A stretch of DNA of 64,000 nucleotides from Sphingopyxis sp. DBS4. Lineage in GTDB: Bacteria > Pseudomonadota > Alphaproteobacteria > Sphingomonadales > Sphingomonadaceae. Positions 11,768 to 63,651 of the stretch are shown piece by piece. A program made the position numbers and the translations under genes. The DNA lies in contig NZ_CP102384.1 in NCBI RefSeq assembly GCF_024628865.1, positions 2,553,001 to 2,617,000 on the forward strand, written 5' to 3'. The notes below the pieces were generated by a model. It did not search any database, was not told the origin of the DNA, and worked only from the letters and a program-made list of their open reading frames with translations. Numbering within the stretch: the first letter of the stretch is position 1; each line of letters begins with the position of its first letter.

Positions 11768-12349
11768 TTAGCTCGCCTTTTTGTCCCCGTCTACAGGGTG
11801 GAAGGTGTAGCTGAGGGTGATCTCTTCGATGTCGCGCGCGTCGGGGTCGTCCTTGATCTTGGGATCGACGAAGAACAGCACCGGCATGCGAATCTGCTCC
11901 CCCGCCTTCAGCGTCTGCTGCGTGAAACAGAAGCACTGGATCTTGGTGAAATATTTGCCCGCGGCGTCGGGGGTGACGTTGAAGCTCGCGGTGCCCGTCA
12001 GGTCGTGCGTCGATTCATTCTGGGCGATGAAGATCGCCATGTCGCGCGCGCCGATGCTGACCGTGTCGGTCGGATGCTCGGGATAGAATTTCCACGGCAG
12101 TCCCGGCGCGACATTGGAGTCGAAGCGCACCGAGATGGTGTCGCTGAGAACCTTCGGCGTTTCGGCCGCCGCGACGGGATCATAGCGCTGCGTCGTGCCG
12201 CCGAAGCCGGTGACGCGGCAGAAGAGATTGTAGAGCGGCACCGCCGCGAAACCGAGCCCGACCATCGCCACTGCGAGCAGCGCGGCGAGCGAAGCGGTCT
12301 TCGCGTTCTTGGACATGCGGGCGATCGGGCGGGGCATCAGGGCGGTCAT
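11768..12349 (-). CDS. ctaG: cytochrome c oxidase assembly protein CtaG/Cox11
   Basis: 193 residues: one N-terminal membrane helix (TASLAALLAVAMVGLGFAAVPLY), then a periplasmic domain. The copper-binding CFCF motif is present in FTKIQCFCFTQQTL, followed by MPVLFFVDP. CtaG delivers copper to the CuB site of subunit I. Its ATG overlaps the stop of the upstream 49-residue gene (ATGA, 12346-12349), which supports the start at 12349 and translational coupling. Confidence 0.96.
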   Translation of the reverse strand: MTALMPRPIARMSKNAKTASLAALLAVAMVGLGFAAVPLYNLFCRVTGFGGTTQRYDPVAAAETPKVLSDTISVRFDSNVAPGLPWKFYPEHPTDTVSIGARDMAIFIAQNESTHDLTGTASFNVTPDAAGKYFTKIQCFCFTQQTLKAGEQIRMPVLFFVDPKIKDDPDARDIEEITLSYTFHPVDGDKKAS

Positions 12350-12495
12350 GAATGCGGCACCATCCGCGCCATAGTGATGAAGAAGAACAGCAGCGCGAGC
12401 GCCCCCAATATCCAGCCCATCAGGTTCGCCCGGCTGCGCTGGCGGCGACGATATTCGGCCTCGTCGAATGGCTCTTGCGGATTTTCGTCGGTCAT
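12346..12495 (-). CDS. 49-residue membrane protein in the cox cluster
   Basis: Small gene with ATGA overlaps at both ends, to ctaB upstream (12492-12495) and ctaG downstream (12346-12349). The product has a charged N-terminus ([20 protein letters not shown]) and one membrane helix ([20 protein letters not shown]). Small single-helix proteins occur at this position in other alphaproteobacterial cox operons and are sometimes called CoxF; homology beyond position and architecture cannot be shown here. A role as a small oxidase subunit or assembly factor is inferred. Confidence 0.85.
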
Positions 12496-13403
12496 AGCGG
12501 CCACCAATGATCGGCGACGACCGCGCCGAACAGGATGAAAAGATAGGCGATCGAATAAGCGAAGAGCCGCTTTTCGGGCTGCATCCGGTCGTCCTCGCCC
12601 GTGCGGCGCGTGCCGACCTGGATCGAGAGCAGCACGAAGAGCGCCGACAGCAGCACGGCGGTCCAGCCATAGAGTGCGCCGGTATAGCCGAGCGGCCAAG
12701 GCGCGATCGCCGCCGCCGCCATGATCAGCGCATAGAAAAGGATCTGGCGCCGGGTCGAGCTTTCGCCCGCGACGACCGGCATCATCGGAATGCCCGCGGC
12801 GGCATAGTCGGAGCGCACGAACAGCGCGAGCGCCCAGAAATGCGGCGGCGTCCACAGGAAGATGAGCAGGAACAGCAGCACCGGCAGCGGCGCGACGCCG
12901 CCGGTCGCGGCGACCCAGCCGATCAGCGGCGGAAAGGCCCCCGCGGCGCCGCCGATGACGATATTCTGCGGCGTCCGCGGTTTCAGCCACATGGTGTAGA
13001 CGAAGACATAGAAGAGGATCGAGACGGTCAGCAGCAGCGCCGCCTGCCAATTGGCGGCGAACAGCATCAGAAAGACCGAGAAGGCGGCGAGCCCGACCCC
13101 GAAGTGGAGCGCGGTCTGCGGGTCGAGGCGCCCGGCGGGAAGCGGCCGCCCGGCGGTGCGCTTCATCTTCGCGTCGAGCCCCGCCTCATACCATTGGTTG
13201 AGCGCCCCCGACGCCCCTGCCCCCAGCGCGATCGCGAGGATCGAGGAGAAGGCGAGCACCGGATGGACGCTGCCCGGCGCCGCGAGCAGGCCGCAAAGCG
13301 CCGTGAACACGACGAGCGACATCACGCGCGGCTTGGTCAGCGCGAACAGGTCGCGCCAATCGGCAGGCAGCGACATTTCGCCATGGGTCAGGCTCTGCGC
13401 CAT
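12492..13403 (-). CDS. ctaB: heme O synthase (protoheme IX farnesyltransferase)
   Basis: 303 residues with about eight to nine membrane helices, a UbiA-type prenyltransferase. [19 protein letters not shown] and the aspartate-rich stretch around [20 protein letters not shown] (the DxxMxRT-RPLP signature) identify CtaB/Cox10, which farnesylates heme B to heme O for the oxidase. It starts 74 bases after ctaD and overlaps the following 49-residue gene by ATGA. Confidence 0.97.
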
Positions 13404-13476
13404 CTCAACTCCGGCCTTCAGGGAAACGCCCCCCGCCGACATCCGGCAGGGGGCGGAACCGTTCAGGCGATAGACG

Positions 13477-15147
13477 TCACGCGATCCGGGGCAGTTCGTT
13501 GAACTGGTGGAACGGCGGCGGGCTCGACAGCGTCCATTCGAGCGTCGTCGCACCCTCGCCCCACGGATTGTCGGCGGCCTTCTTGCCCGCGAACAGCGAA
13601 TAGACGAGGTTCACGAAGAAGAAGAGCATCCCGACCGCCATGATCGCATAACCGACCGACGAGATATAATGCCAGTAGGCGAAGCCTTCGGCATAGTCGG
13701 GATAGCGGCGCGGCATGCCCTGCTGGCCCAGGAAGTGCTGGGGGAAGAACAGGATGTTCACGCCGATGAAGAATATCCAGAAGTGGAGCTGGCCCAGCGT
13801 CTCGCTGTACATCCGGCCCGACATCTTCGGGAACCAGTAATAGAAGCCGGCGAAGAGCGAGAAGACCGCGCCCAGCGACAGCACATAGTGGAAGTGCGCG
13901 ACGACATAATAGGTGTCGTGCAGGTTGGTGTCGACGCCGCCGTTGGCGAGCACGACGCCGGTCACGCCGCCCACCGTGAACATGAAGATGAAGCCCAGCG
14001 CCCAGACCATCGGCGTCTTGAAGCTCAGCGAGCCGCCCCACATGGTGGCGATCCACGAAAAGATCTTGATGCCGGTCGGAACCGCGATGACCATCGTCGC
14101 CGCGGTGAAGTACATTTTCAGGTTCACGTTCATGCCGACGGTGAACATGTGGTGCGCCCACACGATGAAGCCGACGACACCGATCGCGACCATCGCATAA
14201 GCCATGCCGAGATAGCCGAAGACCGGCTTTTTCGAGAAGGTCGAGATGACCTGGCTGACGATGCCGAAGCCCGGCAGGATCATGATGTAGACTTCGGGAT
14301 GGCCGAAGAACCAGAAGAGATGCTGGTAGAGCACCGGATCGCCGCCGCCCGTCGCGTCATAGAAGGTGGTGCCGAAGTTGCGGTCGGTCAGCAGCATGGT
14401 GATCGCAGCGGCCAGAACCGGCAGCGACAGCAGCAGCAGAAAGGCGGTGACCAGCACCGACCACACGAACAGCGGCATCTTGTGCAGGGTCATGCCCGGC
14501 GCGCGCATGTTGAAGATAGTGGTGATGAAGTTGATCGCGCCGAGGATCGACGCCGCACCCGCAAGGTGGACCGAGAAGATCGCCATGTCGACCGCGGGGC
14601 CGACCGAGCCGCTGGTCGACAGCGGCGCATAGAGCGTCCAGCCGGTACCGGCGCCAAGGCCGCTGCCGCCGGGGAAGAACATCGAGGCGACGAGCATGAC
14701 GAACGCCACGGTGGTCAGCCAATAGCTGACGTTGTTCATCCGCGGGAAGGCCATGTCGGGCGCGCCGATCATCAGCGGCACGAACCAGTTGCCGAAGCCG
14801 CCGATCATCGCCGGCATGACCATGAAGAAGATCATGATCAGGCCGTGCGCGGTGATCATCACGTTCCAGAAATGCTTCGCCTGCACCTCGGTCGCGGCGG
14901 GGTCGAAGAATTGCGCCCAGCCGTGGAGATACTGGATGCCCGGTTCGGCGAGTTCGAGGCGCATCATCCCCGACAGCACGCCGCCGACGATGCCGGCGAT
15001 GATCGCGAAGATCAGGTAGAGCGTGCCGATGTCCTTGTGGTTCGTGGACATGAACCAGCGGACGAAGAAGCCCGGCGTGTGGTCGTGGTCATGATCATGC
15101 GCATGATCGTGGCCATGGGATGGTGCAGTCGCTGCGATATCGGTCAT
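13477..15147 (-). CDS. ctaD: cytochrome c oxidase subunit I
   Basis: 556 residues, twelve membrane helices. Heme a, a3 and CuB ligands lie in the expected segments: [38 protein letters not shown] (His-Pro-Glu-Val-Tyr), [13 protein letters not shown] and [20 protein letters not shown] contains the histidine-tyrosine pair and the E of the D/K-channel type A oxidases. Unusual: residues 11-23 alternate histidine with aspartate or other residues ([13 protein letters not shown]), seven histidines ahead of the first helix. ATG 15147 is chosen; a longer frame to 15360 overlaps ctaC. Confidence 0.98.
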
Positions 15148-28823: not shown

Positions 28824-29855
28824 ATGTCCGCTGTCCGCCTCCTGCCGCCCACCCGCTTCTTCGATCGCACCGAATGGGCCGCGATCACCGCCCCCTCGCG
28901 CTGGCGCGGCGTCTGGCTGGTCGGCCATGCGTGGATCGTCAGCATCGCGGCGGTCGGACTCGCGGCGTGGAGCGGTCATCCGCTCGCCTGGCTGCTCGCG
29001 ATTATCATCGTCGGCGGGCGCCAGCTCGGCCTGGCAATCCTGATGCACGAGGCTGCGCACGGCCTGCTGCACCCCAACAGAAAAGTGAATAATTTCCTCG
29101 GCCAATGGCTGACCGGATCGGCCGCCGGATCGGACCTGATCGCCTATCGCACCTATCATCTGCAGCATCATAAATATACGCAGCAGCCCGAAGACCCCGA
29201 CCTGTCGCTGTCGAAACCCTTCCCGACCACGCGCGCCAGCCTGGGGCGCAAGATATTGCGCGACCTGACCGGGCAGACCTTCTTCAAGCAGCGCATGGCG
29301 CAGTTCGGCTATGCCTTCAAAGGCCTGCAGGCGATGCTGCGCGGCGAGCGGGGCGACAAGAAGGGAGCGAGCACCAAGGCGGGCACACCGTTCAACAAGC
29401 AGTCGGATGACGGCGTGACGTCACCGACGGTCGACGTCGCGGGCGCGATGGCGGTGACCCGCGCGGTCGGGCGCTTTCTGCTGGTGCAGGCGGTGCTGCT
29501 CGCGGCGTCGCTATTGCTCTATGGCTGGACGCCCTGGCTGCTGTGGATCGCCGCGCTCGCGACGACCTTTCAGCTTTTCCTCCGCATCCGCAACATCGCC
29601 GAACATGCGTGCACGACGACCGGGAGCGAGGATCCCTTCACCCATGCGCGCACGACGCACGCGGGCTGGATCGCGCGGGCGACGGTCGCGCCCTATTGGG
29701 TGAATTACCACGCCGAGCATCATCTGTTCATGGGCGTCCCCTGCTATCGTCTGCCCGCGGTCCACGCGATGCTCGGCCGGCAGGGGCAACATGCGGCGAT
29801 GACGATCGCGCCGCATTATCGCGCGGTACTGCGGCAGGTGACGGCGAAGGGTTAG
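28824..29855 (+). CDS. membrane fatty acid desaturase
   Basis: 343 residues. The three histidine boxes of membrane di-iron desaturases are visible: HEAAHGLLH, HLQHHKYTQQ and YHAEHHLFMG. Hydrophobic segments lie at about 28-65 and 215-250. It introduces double bonds into acyl chains of membrane lipids or hydroxylates a related substrate; the regiospecificity is not predictable. ATG 28824 has AGGGTGG upstream, so it is preferred over an in-frame ATG at 28809. Confidence 0.9.
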   Translation: MSAVRLLPPTRFFDRTEWAAITAPSRWRGVWLVGHAWIVSIAAVGLAAWSGHPLAWLLAIIIVGGRQLGLAILMHEAAHGLLHPNRKVNNFLGQWLTGSAAGSDLIAYRTYHLQHHKYTQQPEDPDLSLSKPFPTTRASLGRKILRDLTGQTFFKQRMAQFGYAFKGLQAMLRGERGDKKGASTKAGTPFNKQSDDGVTSPTVDVAGAMAVTRAVGRFLLVQAVLLAASLLLYGWTPWLLWIAALATTFQLFLRIRNIAEHACTTTGSEDPFTHARTTHAGWIARATVAPYWVNYHAEHHLFMGVPCYRLPAVHAMLGRQGQHAAMTIAPHYRAVLRQVTAKG

Positions 29856-29869
29856 CATGACTTGTGTGT

Positions 29870-29946
29870 CCCCGCGAAGGCGGGGACCCATCTCCGGTGG
29901 GTCCAAAATGGCACCGGACGGAGATGGGCCCCCGCCTTCGCGGGGG
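29870..29946. repeat. intergenic palindrome, family A variant
   Basis: CCCCGCGAAGGCGGGGACCC answered by GGGCCCCCGCCTTCGCGGGG, with inner arms CCATCTCCGGTGGG and CCGGACGGAGATGG. Lies between the convergent desaturase and bufC genes. Confidence 0.85.
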
Positions 29947-29955
29947 AACAGGTTT

Positions 29956-30738
29956 TCAATAATGCCGGTGTTCCGCCAGCACCCCATCAGCGAGCCATTG
30001 GCCGAGCCAGCCGGCAAGCTCCTCCATCGCGGCGGCCTCTCCGACCGCTTCGATGACATGGGCGCTGAGCCCGGTGAAGGTCGCGCCCGCTTCGAGCCGC
30101 GCGAGCGCTCTCGCCTCGATTTCGGACAGGCTGCGGAAATGCGGCTGCAGGCCGTTCCGCCAGACGAGCAATGCGATGGGTTCCGTGAGCTCGACCGGCT
30201 CGGGCGGTTCCTCCCCGTCATCGAGCGCGCGCCATAGCGCCGCGACGTTGAAGCGCGCCGACAACAAGCTCGCGGACGGATGGAGCCTCAGCGGCTGATC
30301 GAGCCACGTCTCGCCCAGCCCGGTCACGCGCACGGCATCGAGCGCCGGAACATCGGGCGCGTCGAACGCCGCGCGCAACGCCCAGTCGAGCCGCGCCAGT
30401 TCGGCAAGTTCGCCGTCGTCGGGAAAATGCTCGGCCAGGAAGGCCGCGAAACCGCCGCCATAATGGCGGAGGTTGCGCGTCGTCGACGGGTGGGCGGCGA
30501 CATAGGCGCACGCCACATTATCGAACTGTTCGTCGCCGAGCCAGGCGTGCAGCCGCTCGTAATGATCGGCGAGCACGCCGGTCAGGCTGGCGCGGTAATT
30601 GTTGCGATAGATGGCAAGCCGCTTCGCCGCGCCGACACGCGCGTCGTCGACGATCAGCGCCCCGGCATCCGCATCGCCATCGACGATCGCCGCGAGAAAG
30701 CGCCGCTGAACCTCGCGCAGCGGCTCAGGCATCGGCAC
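29956..30738 (-). CDS. bufC: DUF2063/HvfC-like partner protein of a bufferin system
   Basis: 260 residues. The N-terminal part ([50 protein letters not shown]) matches the DUF2063 putative DNA-binding domain family that accompanies DUF692 enzymes. In bufferin and related systems this protein presents the precursor peptide to the iron enzyme; DNA binding is not established. It overlaps bufB by 14 bases, so the two are translationally linked. The symbol is assigned from domain and operon position. Confidence 0.85.
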
Positions 30739-31576
30739 CCTCCAGCACCCGCGCGGCGACCGTCCGCGCTCGGTCCAGTTCGGCGATGACGTCGGCGAGC
30801 GGCGGAATATTGTCGTCGCGCTCGATCATCGTCGCCACCGGCCCGAACATCGCGATCGCCCGCGCATAAAGATTCCACACCGCGTCGCAGACGTCGGCGT
30901 CGTGGGTGTCGATGACATAATCGCCCATGTCGCTGTGCCCCGCGAGATGGATCTGCTGGATGCGGCCAGCGGGCAAGCCGGCCAGATAGTCGAGCGGGTC
31001 GAAACCGTGGTTGCGCGCGCTGACATAGATATTGTTGACGTCGAGCAGCAACAGGCAGTCGGCGCGCTCGGCCATGTCGGCGAGGAAGTCCCACTCGCTG
31101 CGATCCGACGAGCGAAAGGTGACGTAGCTCGACGGGTTCTCGATCAGGATGCGGCGGCCGAGAAAGTCCTGCACCCGGCCGATATTGTCGACGACGCATT
31201 GCAGCGCCGGCGCGTCATAAGGGAGCGGCAGCAGATCGTGGCTGTTGTGCGCGTCGATCCCGGTCCAGCAGAGATGGTCCGAAATCCACAGCGGCTCGAC
31301 CCGTTCCGCCAGCGCCTTGAGATCGGCGAGATAGGCCCTGTCCAGCGGCTCGTCCGACCCGATCGACAGCGACACGCCGTGCATCACCATCGGATAGTCG
31401 GCGCGGATGCGGTCGAGCATGGCGAGCGGGCGCCCGCCCGGCACCATGTAATTTTCGGAGATGATCTCCAGCCATTCGACCGGCTGCGGTCCCGCCAGAA
31501 AATCGGAATAATGGTCGGGGCGCAGGCCGAGGCCAAAGCCCGGCGATGGCACTGTCCTGCTGTCCTCGGCGCGCAC
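30725..31576 (-). CDS. bufB: DUF692 multinuclear non-heme iron oxidase (MNIO)
   Basis: 283 residues, TIM-barrel enzyme of the DUF692/MNIO family. Likely metal ligands lie in [61 protein letters not shown] and IDTHDADV. MNIOs install oxidative modifications on cysteines of ribosomally made peptides, in bufferins to create copper-binding groups. GTG 31576 has GGAG seven bases upstream. The adjacent 8-cysteine small protein is the probable substrate and bufC the probable partner. Confidence 0.92.
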
Positions 31577-31631
31577 GCTCGCTCTCCGTCGGCGGTTCGG
31601 GTCCGGCGCCGGCCGGACCCGTCCGTTGTCG

Positions 31632-31943
31632 TCAGACCGCGATCTTGCCGCCGTCGGTCAGGCATTTGCCCGCGGCGAGCTTCTTGAAGCCCTTGCCCTT
31701 GCAGCTGTTCGCGCCCGCGCAGCTATTGCCCGCGGTGCTGCACCCGGCGTCGCCGCTGCACGAGCTTGCCTCGGTCTTGCAGTCCGAGGTGCCCTTGCAA
31801 CTGTTGACGCCATAGCATTTGACCGTGTCGCTCGCGCCGACGCGCTTGGCGTGCGGCGCCGGGTCGGCGGCGAGCGCGGCGCCCGAAAGCGCGACCGCGG
31901 TCGCCGAAGCGGCGATGAGACTGGCGAGTTTGTGGCTGTTCAT
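31632..31943 (-). CDS. bufA2: BufA2-type bufferin metallophore precursor
   Basis: 103 residues with a Sec signal peptide (ending SGAALA) and a mature part with eight cysteines at 43, 49, 55, 62, 68, 75, 81 and 94. The motif [15 protein letters not shown] and the closing NSCKGKGF match the periplasmic bufferin type 2 pattern. The 49-81 stretch has cysteines every 6-7 residues and looks internally duplicated (NSCKG occurs twice). The likely product is a modified, copper-binding periplasmic peptide. First gene of the bufA2-bufB-bufC set; 55 bases separate it from bufB. Confidence 0.85.
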
Positions 31944-31980
31944 GTGATCGTCCCTTCCCTTGGCTGTCCAGATAGAAGTG

Positions 31981-31996
31981 GGGCGACTCGTCGCCC
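31981..31996. promoter_or_regulatory. perfect palindrome upstream of bufA2
   Basis: GGGCGACTCGTCGCCC, a perfect 7+7 inverted repeat with a 2-base centre, 38-53 bases before the bufA2 start. Position and symmetry suit an operator or a short RNA hairpin in the leader. No regulator can be assigned. Confidence 0.4.
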
Positions 31997-32032
31997 GCTG
32001 TTCTTGTCACACGACCCGGCGGCCTTGTCGCA

Positions 32033-32044
32033 TGATCTCGATCA
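32033..32044. promoter_or_regulatory. TGAT-N4-ATCA site upstream of bufA2
   Basis: TGATCTCGATCA, identical in its eight core bases to the FNR/FixK half-site pair TGAT-N4-ATCA, 90-101 bases upstream of bufA2 and 16 bases beyond the asparaginase stop. Suggestive only; a chance match is quite possible. Confidence 0.3.
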
Positions 32045-32059
32045 CAGGCGAAAGGAAAT

Positions 32060-32542
32060 TCAGGTCCCGGCGCGGAAGCGTCCGGCGGCGCGGTCCTTCA
32101 CCGTCGTCGCGGGGTCGAAAATCATCCCGTTCATCGCGACATAGACGCCGGGCGGCAGCGTCTGCACCGCGGCGAGCGCGAAGCCGACGTTGAATTCGGC
32201 GTCGCTCGCGCGCACCGACGCGGGCTGCATCGCCCCGGTGAGCACGATCGTCTTGCCCGCGATCCCCGCGAGCACGCGCCCGGTGACGACCATCGTGTCG
32301 GTGCCGTGGGTGACGAGGATGCAGTCCGCATCGCTCGCGGCGACCGCGGCGCGGATCGTCTCGCGGTCGGCGTCGTCGAGCTCGAGGCTGTCCTTGCGCA
32401 TGAGTTGCGTGACGCGGTGCGGGACGTGGACATTATTCTCGCGCAGCATGTCGGGGATCGCCGCGGGGCCGATCTGGAACTCGCTGAGCGCGTCGAAATA
32501 GACTTTGTCGATCGTTCCGCCGGTGGTGAAGATGTCGATCAT
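32060..32542 (-). CDS. single-domain asparaginase-like protein
   Basis: 160 residues, about half the length of bacterial L-asparaginases. It contains the N-terminal asparaginase domain with both catalytic threonine motifs, FTTGGTIDKVYF and LVTHGTDTMVVTG, plus KTIVLTGAMQP, but no C-terminal domain. Short asparaginase-domain proteins are known in alphaproteobacteria, so this is probably a natural form, not a fragment. Activity is uncertain because the full active site normally uses residues from a neighbouring subunit. ATG 32542 is preferred to TTG 32545. Confidence 0.82.
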   Translation of the reverse strand: MIDIFTTGGTIDKVYFDALSEFQIGPAAIPDMLRENNVHVPHRVTQLMRKDSLELDDADRETIRAAVAASDADCILVTHGTDTMVVTGRVLAGIAGKTIVLTGAMQPASVRASDAEFNVGFALAAVQTLPPGVYVAMNGMIFDPATTVKDRAAGRFRAGT

Positions 32543-32587
32543 CAATCTAGCCCCTTCATTCGCAACATGCGTTCCAAGAGCCGATCG

Positions 32588-51355: not shown

Positions 51356-52072
51356 TCATCCGCTCGCGGCGATGTCGTCGAGCGCCGCCGGGCTCAGGAT
51401 CGTGACGCGATTATAGTCGACCGCGATCAGCCCCGCCGCCTCGAACCCGCGCAGCAGTTTGTTGATGCTCTGTCGCGTCACGCCGAGCATCGCGCCGAGC
51501 TGTTCCTGCGGCAGGCGCAGCGCCAGTTCGATCCCCGCGGGGCCCGCAACACCGTGAATCCGCGCAAGATCGGCGAGAGTCGCCGCCATCCGCTGTTCAA
51601 GCGAGCCGAGCTTCTGATTGTTGAGCTGACGCAGGCTGTCGCCGTGCCGCGCGCACATCAACAACGCGATGTCGCGCCAGAGAATGGGATCGGCATCGAG
51701 GATCGCCGCCAGCCCGTCGCACGGCAGGTGCAGCAGCACGCTGTCCTCATAAGCGGTATAGACATAATGGATCGGCGGCTCGGCAAGCAGGCGGACGATC
51801 GCAAGGATTTCGTGCGGCCCCTGCAGGCTCAGCACGAATTTCTTGCCCGCCGCCGACGCGCGGCTGACCTCGACCTCGCCCGCGGCGATGACGAACGCCT
51901 CGCGCCGTTCGGGATCGCGCGCGAAGATTTCGGCGCCACGCCGATATGGCTCGGCGCGCGCGATCGCCGCGACCTCGGCAAGCCGCGCCTCGGGCCAGCC
52001 CGCGAACAGCGGGCAGAGGCGAAGCGCGGCGAGACGGTCCTCGCGCGACCATGCTCCTTGGCTCGCTACCAT
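51356..52072 (-). CDS. Crp/Fnr-family transcriptional regulator
   Basis: 238 residues. A cyclic-nucleotide-binding-like sensor domain (about 20-140) and a C-terminal winged helix with LPQEQLGAMLGVTRQSINKLLRGFEAAGLI as the recognition part. There is no N-terminal cluster of cysteines, so it is not an FNR-type oxygen sensor. ATG 52072 is preferred to the in-frame extension to 52114, which begins in a repeat-like sequence. Its signal and targets are unknown. Confidence 0.9.
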   Translation of the reverse strand: MVASQGAWSREDRLAALRLCPLFAGWPEARLAEVAAIARAEPYRRGAEIFARDPERREAFVIAAGEVEVSRASAAGKKFVLSLQGPHEILAIVRLLAEPPIHYVYTAYEDSVLLHLPCDGLAAILDADPILWRDIALLMCARHGDSLRQLNNQKLGSLEQRMAATLADLARIHGVAGPAGIELALRLPQEQLGAMLGVTRQSINKLLRGFEAAGLIAVDYNRVTILSPAALDDIAASG

Positions 52073-52089
52073 GCACGCACCCCCTAATT

Positions 52090-52119
52090 CGTCATTGCGA
52101 GCGAAGCGAAGCAATGACG
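52090..52119. repeat. short palindrome, collapsed family B
   Basis: CGTCATTGCGAG...GAAGCAATGACG: the outer arms of family B brought together with the middle missing. Lies in the divergent gap between the Crp-like gene and the DUF1254 gene (52073-52249). Confidence 0.8.
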
Positions 52120-62742: not shown

Positions 62743-63651
62743 TTAGAGCCGGGCGGTTGTTTTGCGCATCAGCGCGGTTGAAGCAATGGGCTGCGTAGCG
62801 GAGCCCGGAGGGCGTAGCGAAGCAGGCCATTGCTTATTCAGTTCAGCGGCGAACGCCGCCGGGGTTGCGTAGCCAAGGGACGAGTGTGGTCTCTCCCGGT
62901 TGTAATCCTCGACCCAGGCAGCGATCTCGACCCGAGCATGGGCAAGACTCATGAACAGGGTCTCATTCAGCAGCTCGTCGCGCATGCGACCGTTAAAGCT
63001 TTCCACGTAGCCGTTCTGCATCGGCTTGCCCGGGGCGATGTAATGCCACTCCACGCCGCTCTGGCCGCACCATGCGAGCACGGCATTGCTGGTGAGCTCG
63101 GTGCCATTATCGCTGACGATCATCCCCGGCTTGCCGCGCTGTGCGATCAGCTCGGTCAGCTCGCGCACGACACGGCGCCCCGAGATCGAGGTGTCGGGCA
63201 CCGCTGCCAGGCACTCCCGGGTCACGTCATCGACCACGTTGAGAACGCGGAATCGCCTGCCCGACGCCATCTGGTCATGAACGAAGTCGAGGCTCCAGCG
63301 CTGGTTCGCCAGTGCCAGCACCGGAGCAGGTGCCCTCGTGCCGACAGCACGCTTGCGGCTGCGTCGCCGCCTCACCGCCAGACCTTCTTCCTTGTAGAGC
63401 CGCTGGGTCTTCTTCCGGTTGATCATCACGCCTTCCCGGCGCAGCAGGATATGCAAACGGCGATAGCCGAACCGTCGACGCTGGTTGGCCAGCCCGCGCA
63501 GCTTCTCGCGCAGAGCAGTGTCATCGTCCCGGGTGGAACGATAGCGCACGCTCTTGCGATCGGCATCGATGACACGGCACGCCCGCCGTTCGCTCATCCC
63601 GTGGCACGCCTGCAGATGAGCGACAGCTTCCCGCTTCGCGGCGGGCGTCAA
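62743..63651 (-). CDS. IS3-family transposase OrfB (integrase domain)
   Basis: 302 residues in the frame -1 to orfA. An HTH_21 region ([18 protein letters not shown]) and the rve core with the DDE triad: D in [12 protein letters not shown] in [11 protein letters not shown] and E in [16 protein letters not shown]. Normally made as an OrfAB fusion by -1 frameshifting. TTG 63651 could also start it alone. The frame is intact, so the element may be active. Confidence 0.93.

Follow-up and report, generated by a model that had tools for sequence, protein, structure and literature searches.

A type 2 bufferin operon of Sphingopyxis sp. DBS4 with an additional cysteine pair in its precursor

The DNA analysed here, a stretch of 64,000 nucleotides that we call the window, holds three genes, bufA2, bufB and bufC, which form an ordinary bufferin set of type 2, with a precursor that carries one additional pair of cysteines. 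We consider it probable that this operon works, with its precursor enlarged by one such cysteine-pair module, in the following manner. After its synthesis in the cytosol, BufA2 would be bound by BufC, which would deliver it to BufB, an iron oxidase. This enzyme would then turn the six inner cysteines (49, 55, 62, 68, 75 and 81) into thiooxazoles, as against four in a six-cysteine relative, and the modified product would be exported by Sec. Once in the periplasm, C43 and C94, the two outermost cysteines, would form a disulphide, and the peptide would sequester surplus copper through binding groups half as numerous again.

Bufferins, peptides that buffer copper, make up a large class described only recently. 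Similar BufB proteins stand beside precursors with 6, 8 and 12-14 cysteines in Sphingopyxis, and the question of which cysteines are modified, and of how much one enzyme can process, is therefore testable by natural precursor swaps. The repeat-expanded relatives of the window precursor are the most interesting part of what was found.

Operon layout and family assignment

The operon lies entirely on the minus strand, and open reading frames place its genes on that strand in the order bufA-bufB-bufC: bufA2 (31632-31943) encodes a type 2 bufferin precursor of 103 residues with eight cysteines, bufB (30725-31576) an MNIO (DUF692) maturase of 283 residues, and bufC (29956-30738) a DUF2063 partner protein of 260 residues. 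The original prediction had placed 55 bases between the precursor and MNIO genes and had the MNIO and DUF2063 genes overlapping, and the coordinates agree, with a bufA2 to bufB gap of 55 bases and a bufB/bufC overlap of 14 bases. It had also called the operon a type 2 bufferin system, naming a profile search as the check, and such a search puts the precursor inside BufA2, where it scores 81.6 bits against NCBIfam NF050166 (curated cut-off 60) in two stretches. BufB reaches 385.4 bits against NF050167 (curated cut-off 310) and 363.8 bits against PF05114, and is the single BufB match that a profile search found in the genome. BufC, a partner protein of PME type 1, scores 89.6 bits against PF09836 (DUF2063; cut-off 27.2); as to a C-terminal RRE-like recognition domain, its NGO1945_C match, at 22.4 bits, is below the cut-off of 27, and the HvfC model gives 60.8, below 142.

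Nine residues of BufB (H66, H101, E146, D179, N181, H210, H214, H225 and E252) are identical to the aligned residues of PDB 3bww, and these we take to be the iron ligands. The Buf1 profile PF10048 (DUF2282) matched neither the precursor nor anything else in the genome, EGKCG repeats of the oxazolin type are absent from the window precursor sequence, and a Padloc scan of BufB gave no match. Read by eye, the precursor begins with a probable Sec signal peptide of about residues 1-25, ending in ALA before AD (31869-31943, minus strand).

The immediate neighbours of the operon are a convergent fatty-acid desaturase gene, beyond bufC, and an asparaginase-domain ORF, with no metal gene directly beside it. 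The asparaginase ORF (32060-32545, minus strand), directly upstream of bufA2, is short, with 161 residues and the N-terminal domain only, and several relatives likewise have its end upstream of the operon. Between the convergent bufC and desaturase genes stands a long imperfect inverted repeat (29869-29946), perhaps a REP-like element; an Rfam search of 29700-32300 gave four matches, all to microRNA families, all below their gathering scores and all on this repeat. As had been foreseen, no DoxX-type bufD follows bufC, the desaturase gene being next to it instead, and the two DoxX matches in the genome, both on the same contig, are not near the operon. The missing bufD is not remarkable here, since doxX genes are present in many, not all, bufferin clusters (PMC12452194) and a cluster of precursor, enzyme and partner alone has been used as a study system (PMC13097082).

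Oxidase copper-assembly genes had been noted some 20 kb off, and the measured distance is about 16-20 kb. They are CtaG/Cox11 (11768-12670) and a UbiA-family gene read as CtaB (12492-13553), and nothing was observed that connects them to bufA2-bufB-bufC. A transposase with an integrase core (rve; 62743-63651, minus strand) lies near the window end.

The cysteine core and its probable modification

The precursor has its cysteines at residues 43, 49, 55, 62, 68, 75, 81 and 94, in successive steps of 6, 6, 7, 6, 7, 6 and then 13 (spacing pattern 5-5-6-5-6-5-12). The expectation of eight cysteines at a spacing of 6-7 residues therefore stands for the count and for the first seven, and fails at the last gap of 13. 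That the precursor is unusually rich in cysteine is borne out by its database relatives, 74 of 103 of which fall into the six-cysteine bin. Another 11 have the window's eight-cysteine spacing, 8 have a different eight-cysteine spacing, 5 have two six-cysteine domains (12 cysteines), and 5 are of other kinds. Five relatives (P0012-P0016), which come from metagenome contigs 515-1125 bases long, resemble mosaics of eight- and six-cysteine forms and may be assembly artefacts; P0012-P0015 are counted among the 74 and P0016 among the other kinds. The second eight-cysteine class, with spacing 5-5-6-5-5-5-12 (P0017, P0018, P0020, P0022, P0023, P0025, P0034 and P0037), has unlike signal sequences and is perhaps an independent gain of a cysteine pair.

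Over 60 alignment rows only C43, C49, C55, C75, C81 and C94 are invariant, so that the six family cysteines are present and, by alignment, C62 and C68 are the added ones. They sit in a 13-residue insert between family C3 (C55) and C4 (C75); the C55-C75 stretch that holds it, defined by the invariant cysteines, spans 31719-31781 (minus strand), and where exactly the insert begins and ends varies with the alignment. The NF050166 match to the precursor falls into two stretches that overlap, profile positions 37-58 being used in both, and the window spacing of 5-5-6-5-6-5-12 can be set against the 5-5-6-5-12 of six-cysteine precursors. This double match and the spacing are naturally explained by duplication of a C3-C4 unit. 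The gene's own DNA is no proof of it: between the two blocks 20 of 39 bases agree, the best score for any neighbouring 13-codon blocks is 22 of 39, a value reached in 13% of shuffles, and a tandem-repeat search found none in the window's cysteine core.

The original prediction had gone further and proposed, from the motif NSCKG occurring twice, that the core as a whole had been duplicated. The motif is present at residues 47-51 and 79-83, as had been said, but N-x-CKG stands at both C2 and C5 in 68 of 84 six-cysteine domains and is thus the normal family pattern, so the argument fails. Real whole-core duplicates have 12 cysteines in two six-cysteine domains (5 of 103 relatives), whereas the window precursor, with eight, does not consist of two complete domains. 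On the strength of the family alignments, where N-x-CKG is normal at both ends of the core, we rejected duplication of the whole core, which now seems scarcely credible.

What becomes of these cysteines we infer from related systems. Buf1 carries its modifications on the inner cysteines and has its two outer ones joined in a disulphide (PMC12452194); MNIO-DUF2063 pairs install 5-thiooxazoles, with BufA2 modelled as the example of the Cys-Lys group (PMC13097082); and MmrA carries six rings over three two-cysteine cassettes and binds Cu(I) (PMC12538549). By analogy, six thiooxazoles and a C43-C94 disulphide would be expected in the window's BufA2, and copper is most likely the metal.

The residues that follow the cysteines bear on this expectation. 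Lys follows each of the two most constrained sites, C2 and C5, in 83 of the 84 six-cysteine domains. After C3 the residue is K in 55, A in 10, H in 6, G in 5, Q in 3, N in 2, S in 2 and M in 1, that is, other than Lys in 29 of 84, and after C4 it is other than Lys in 23 of 84; Ser is rare at both places (2/84 after C3 and 3/84 after C4). In the window precursor Ser comes after C62 and C68, and Ala after C75. Given that the residue after C3 or C4 varies in six-cysteine domains, the non-Lys residues after C62 and C68 are within the family range; given the rarity of Ser there, BufB may skip C62, C68 and C75. The 18 eight-cysteine cores that we set beside the 84 domains were picked by their cysteine pattern, and the invariance of their cysteines is by construction.

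It is against this background that a bufferin with only four converted cysteines has to be weighed, in which C62 and C68 would not be MNIO targets and would form a second disulphide or remain free thiols. We regard this as unlikely, though deserving of weight: C62, C68 and C75 lack the Lys that is characteristic after C2 and C5, the insert adds exactly one pair, and in the 5-5-6-5-5-5-12 class (8/103) this region of the core holds an added pair as well. Set against it are the frequency with which C3 and C4 themselves do without Lys and the three repeat-expanded precursors of the genus, where Lys follows 35 of 40 cysteines as it does at the best conserved family sites. The AlphaFold2 models, with a mean pLDDT of 59 for the window's eight-cysteine protein and 64 for a six-cysteine protein, are too poor for distances between cysteines.

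The copper role is not to be taken for granted either, since MmrA of Microbulbifer, a related copper-binding peptide, escaped detection in cells whether or not copper had been added (PMC12538549). That this bufferin system physiologically serves another metal (gold, mercury, chromate-linked stress or other) nevertheless seems distinctly improbable to us. Such a reading could draw on two Caulobacter operons of this gene set that need sigma-F under dichromate stress (PMC3511200), on the existence of MerC-bufferin fusions (PMC12452194), on the failure of copper to induce MmrA (PMC12538549) and on the operon's own neighbours, an asparaginase-domain ORF and a desaturase in place of any metal gene. 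The characterised bufferins and their relatives bind copper, and bufferins improve growth under copper stress (PMC12452194, PMC12538549), which argues against another metal.

Precursor types across Sphingopyxis and their history

BufB exceeds its cut-off in 51 of 80 Sphingopyxis genomes. Twenty places score 380-391 bits and the others above the cut-off 314-336 bits; we took the 20 as the BufA2-type loci of the genus and read all of them. Compared with the window's protein, BufB is 56% identical in the divergent G019 and 97% identical in one further locus; the remaining 17 of the 19 show 85-90%. The precursor genes beside these similar enzymes are of four kinds. Five loci have a six-cysteine gene only (G011, G013, G019, G065 and G126), seven have a six-cysteine gene followed in tandem by an eight-cysteine gene (G007, G026, G027, G043, G044, G059 and G121), five have the eight-cysteine gene only (G000, which is the window, G012, G032, G054 and G067), and three have a repeat-expanded precursor with 12-14 cysteines (G001, G055 and G071). 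One Sphingopyxis MAG encodes a precursor identical to that of the window.

Within the genomes sampled, the eight-cysteine variant is restricted to Sphingopyxis. Among 60 BufB loci of the family outside the genus, 53 have a six-cysteine precursor and 7 no recognisable one, and an eight-cysteine precursor of either spacing occurs in none; these loci come from the upper part of the list of BufB matches, with G531 left out for its short contig and G481 contributing two loci. Six loci of genus g31 (L103, L105, L110, L111, L127 and L129) have BufB without a recognisable precursor beside it, and the BufA2 profile found no match at E 0.001 in these six genomes; in G235, the seventh g31 genome of the sample, the precursor is normal. 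In L066, L067 and L068 the BufA2-BufB-BufC set adjoins a second set with a four-cysteine precursor, Buf1-like by eye, giving two operons in a row. The plasmid records searched gave no match.

The eight-cysteine and expanded genes share a conserved block upstream, CTGTGAnCnnGATCATGCnA ... GGnTCGTGTGA, at 32007-32047 (minus strand) in the window. It is present in 15 of 15 loci that have such a gene: before eight-cysteine genes, before expanded genes and, in tandem loci, between the two genes. The 12 non-expanded genes between this block and bufB all have the same eight-cysteine layout. Inside the block lies a palindrome, in the window TGTGATCGAGATCATG (32031-32046, minus strand), 87 bases before the ATG.

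The pattern TGTGAYCnnGATCATGnnA has a single occurrence in each of 15 of the 80 Sphingopyxis genomes, exactly those with an eight-cysteine or expanded precursor, and is absent from the remaining 65; it was derived from those 15 loci, and common descent accounts for part of the link. Because the block is near-identical while its neighbours have diverged (mean column identity 58%), the palindrome suggests a candidate binding site, and we take it to resemble the palindromes of the Crp/Fnr family. A Crp/Fnr-type regulator gene lies at 51356-52114 (minus strand), and nothing links it to the palindrome. The bufA2 leader also holds a small inverted repeat, GGGCGACGAGTCGCCC (31981-31996, minus strand). 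Terminator-like hits in the leader are no more than chance (one, on the plus strand, where shuffles average 1.5), a search for a conserved RNA hairpin gave a covariation term of only -0.24 for the leader alignment, and a scan for consensus promoters found none.

A tree of the BufB and BufC proteins, rooted on G481 and with the divergent G019 left out, has loci with the six-cysteine gene only at its base and the tandem, eight-cysteine-only and expanded loci above them, the deep forks being weak (bootstrap 23-73). Well-supported pairs join a tandem locus to an eight-cysteine-only one (G044 with G032, 96.6/98) and another to a six-cysteine-only one (G007 with G065, 99.1/100), from which copies would most simply have been lost more than once. 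The stretches before six-cysteine genes do not match the shared block (scores of 15-29, against 83-171 among the others). In G000, G012, G032, G054, G055 and G071 the 230 bases upstream also match those upstream of six-cysteine genes (means 77-122), and this second match is the end of the asparaginase ORF, which, standing upstream of the block, is what a six-cysteine gene dropped from between them would leave. G067 and G001 do not show it (mean 17); theirs is thus a different upstream history. Taken together, the shared block and the second match make it most likely that the expanded genes descend from the eight-cysteine gene and that the eight-cysteine-only loci lost their six-cysteine gene.

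The eight-cysteine core is under purifying selection. Over C1-C8 of 11 distinct eight-cysteine genes, G067 being left out as its precursor is identical to the window's, mean pN is 0.106 and mean pS 0.314, a ratio of 0.34 (ratio of means, 55 pairs), and the C3-C6 stretch is looser (pN 0.133, pS 0.231). This ratio, the five genomes that keep the eight-cysteine gene only and the upstream block kept in 15 of 15 loci make it very unlikely indeed that the eight-cysteine gene is a decaying duplicate of the six-cysteine gene with no function of its own, even though seven genomes keep both copies and G065, placed inside the tandem clade, has the six-cysteine copy only.

The expanded genes stand just before bufB in G055, G071 and G001 and encode 171, 157 and 188 residues with 14, 12 and 14 cysteines (L073:2548-3063, L074:2760-3233 and L075:2854-3420); the BufB proteins beside them are 85-88% identical to the window's. 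Their signal-peptide region resembles that of other Sphingopyxis precursors, eight-cysteine and some six-cysteine, and their bodies are tandem repeats of 54 bases x 5.4 at 94% (G001), 51 x 4.5 at 95% (G055) and 51 x 3.1 at 83% (G071), with a unit of 17-18 residues that holds two cysteines. Against NF050166 they score 43.7 (G055), 34.3 (G071) and 33.2 bits (G001), below the cut-off of 60, which places them by profile as related to BufA2 but outside the curated family. A protein search with the expanded precursors matched 2 of 396 genomes of the order, with at most 8 candidates scored per genome: the match in G007 covers the first 29 residues only, at its eight-cysteine gene, and that in G240 is 36%. 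Two further protein searches each gave two proteins, 102-122 residues long and without repeat expansion.

By eye, all three expanded precursors have Tyr or Ala in the place of the first cysteine and end shortly before the place of the last. The three loci form one clade (support 100/100), so the joint loss of the outer cysteines may be counted as a single event. An inner module multiplied while both outer cysteines are gone is what one would expect if the outer pair were structural and the inner cysteines the targets, and their joint absence is a specific, checkable hint of a structural disulphide. Tentatively, and with somewhat less than even confidence in the whole, we suggest that one BufB lineage has had precursors with 6, 8 and 12-14 cysteines as its partners. 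The eight-cysteine paralogue would have arisen with its own promoter and outlived the six-cysteine gene in several lineages; one clade would have amplified the inner module in tandem and dropped the outer disulphide pair, giving an open copper sponge that is oxazolin-like by convergence; and a single-site regulator would control the eight-cysteine and expanded genes only. If this is true, a single enzyme copes with anything from four to fourteen targets, and Sphingopyxis offers a ready-made dose series for repeat processing by an MNIO and for which cysteines matter.

Comparison with known systems

A literature search, with most subscription journals outside its scope, returned no paper on Sphingopyxis bufferins or experiments on them, and none on eight-cysteine or repeat-expanded Buf2 precursors. 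The published census of Buf2 gives six cysteines in 90% and 12 in the rest; its text mentions precursors with 1-18 cysteines and does not mention eight for Buf2 (PMC12452194).

Buf2 (BufA2; NF050166/NF050167) is the closest match to the window, with which it shares a signal-peptide-like N-terminus, a CYGVNSCKG...NSCKGKGF core, the gene order bufA-bufB-bufC and the pairing of an MNIO with a DUF2063 partner; it differs in having six cysteines, where the window has eight with the added pair between C3 and C4. Buf1 (DUF2282, PF10048) has the same kind of enzyme and partner but four conserved cysteines and another profile. The oxazolins and their relatives (HvfA, fontiphorin and MmrA, with EGKCG repeats) carry Lys-Cys-Gly, whereas in the expanded Sphingopyxis precursors Lys comes after the cysteine (35/40). 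Also unlike the oxazolins, the expanded precursors have a BufA2-like signal peptide and stand before a BufA2-type BufB.
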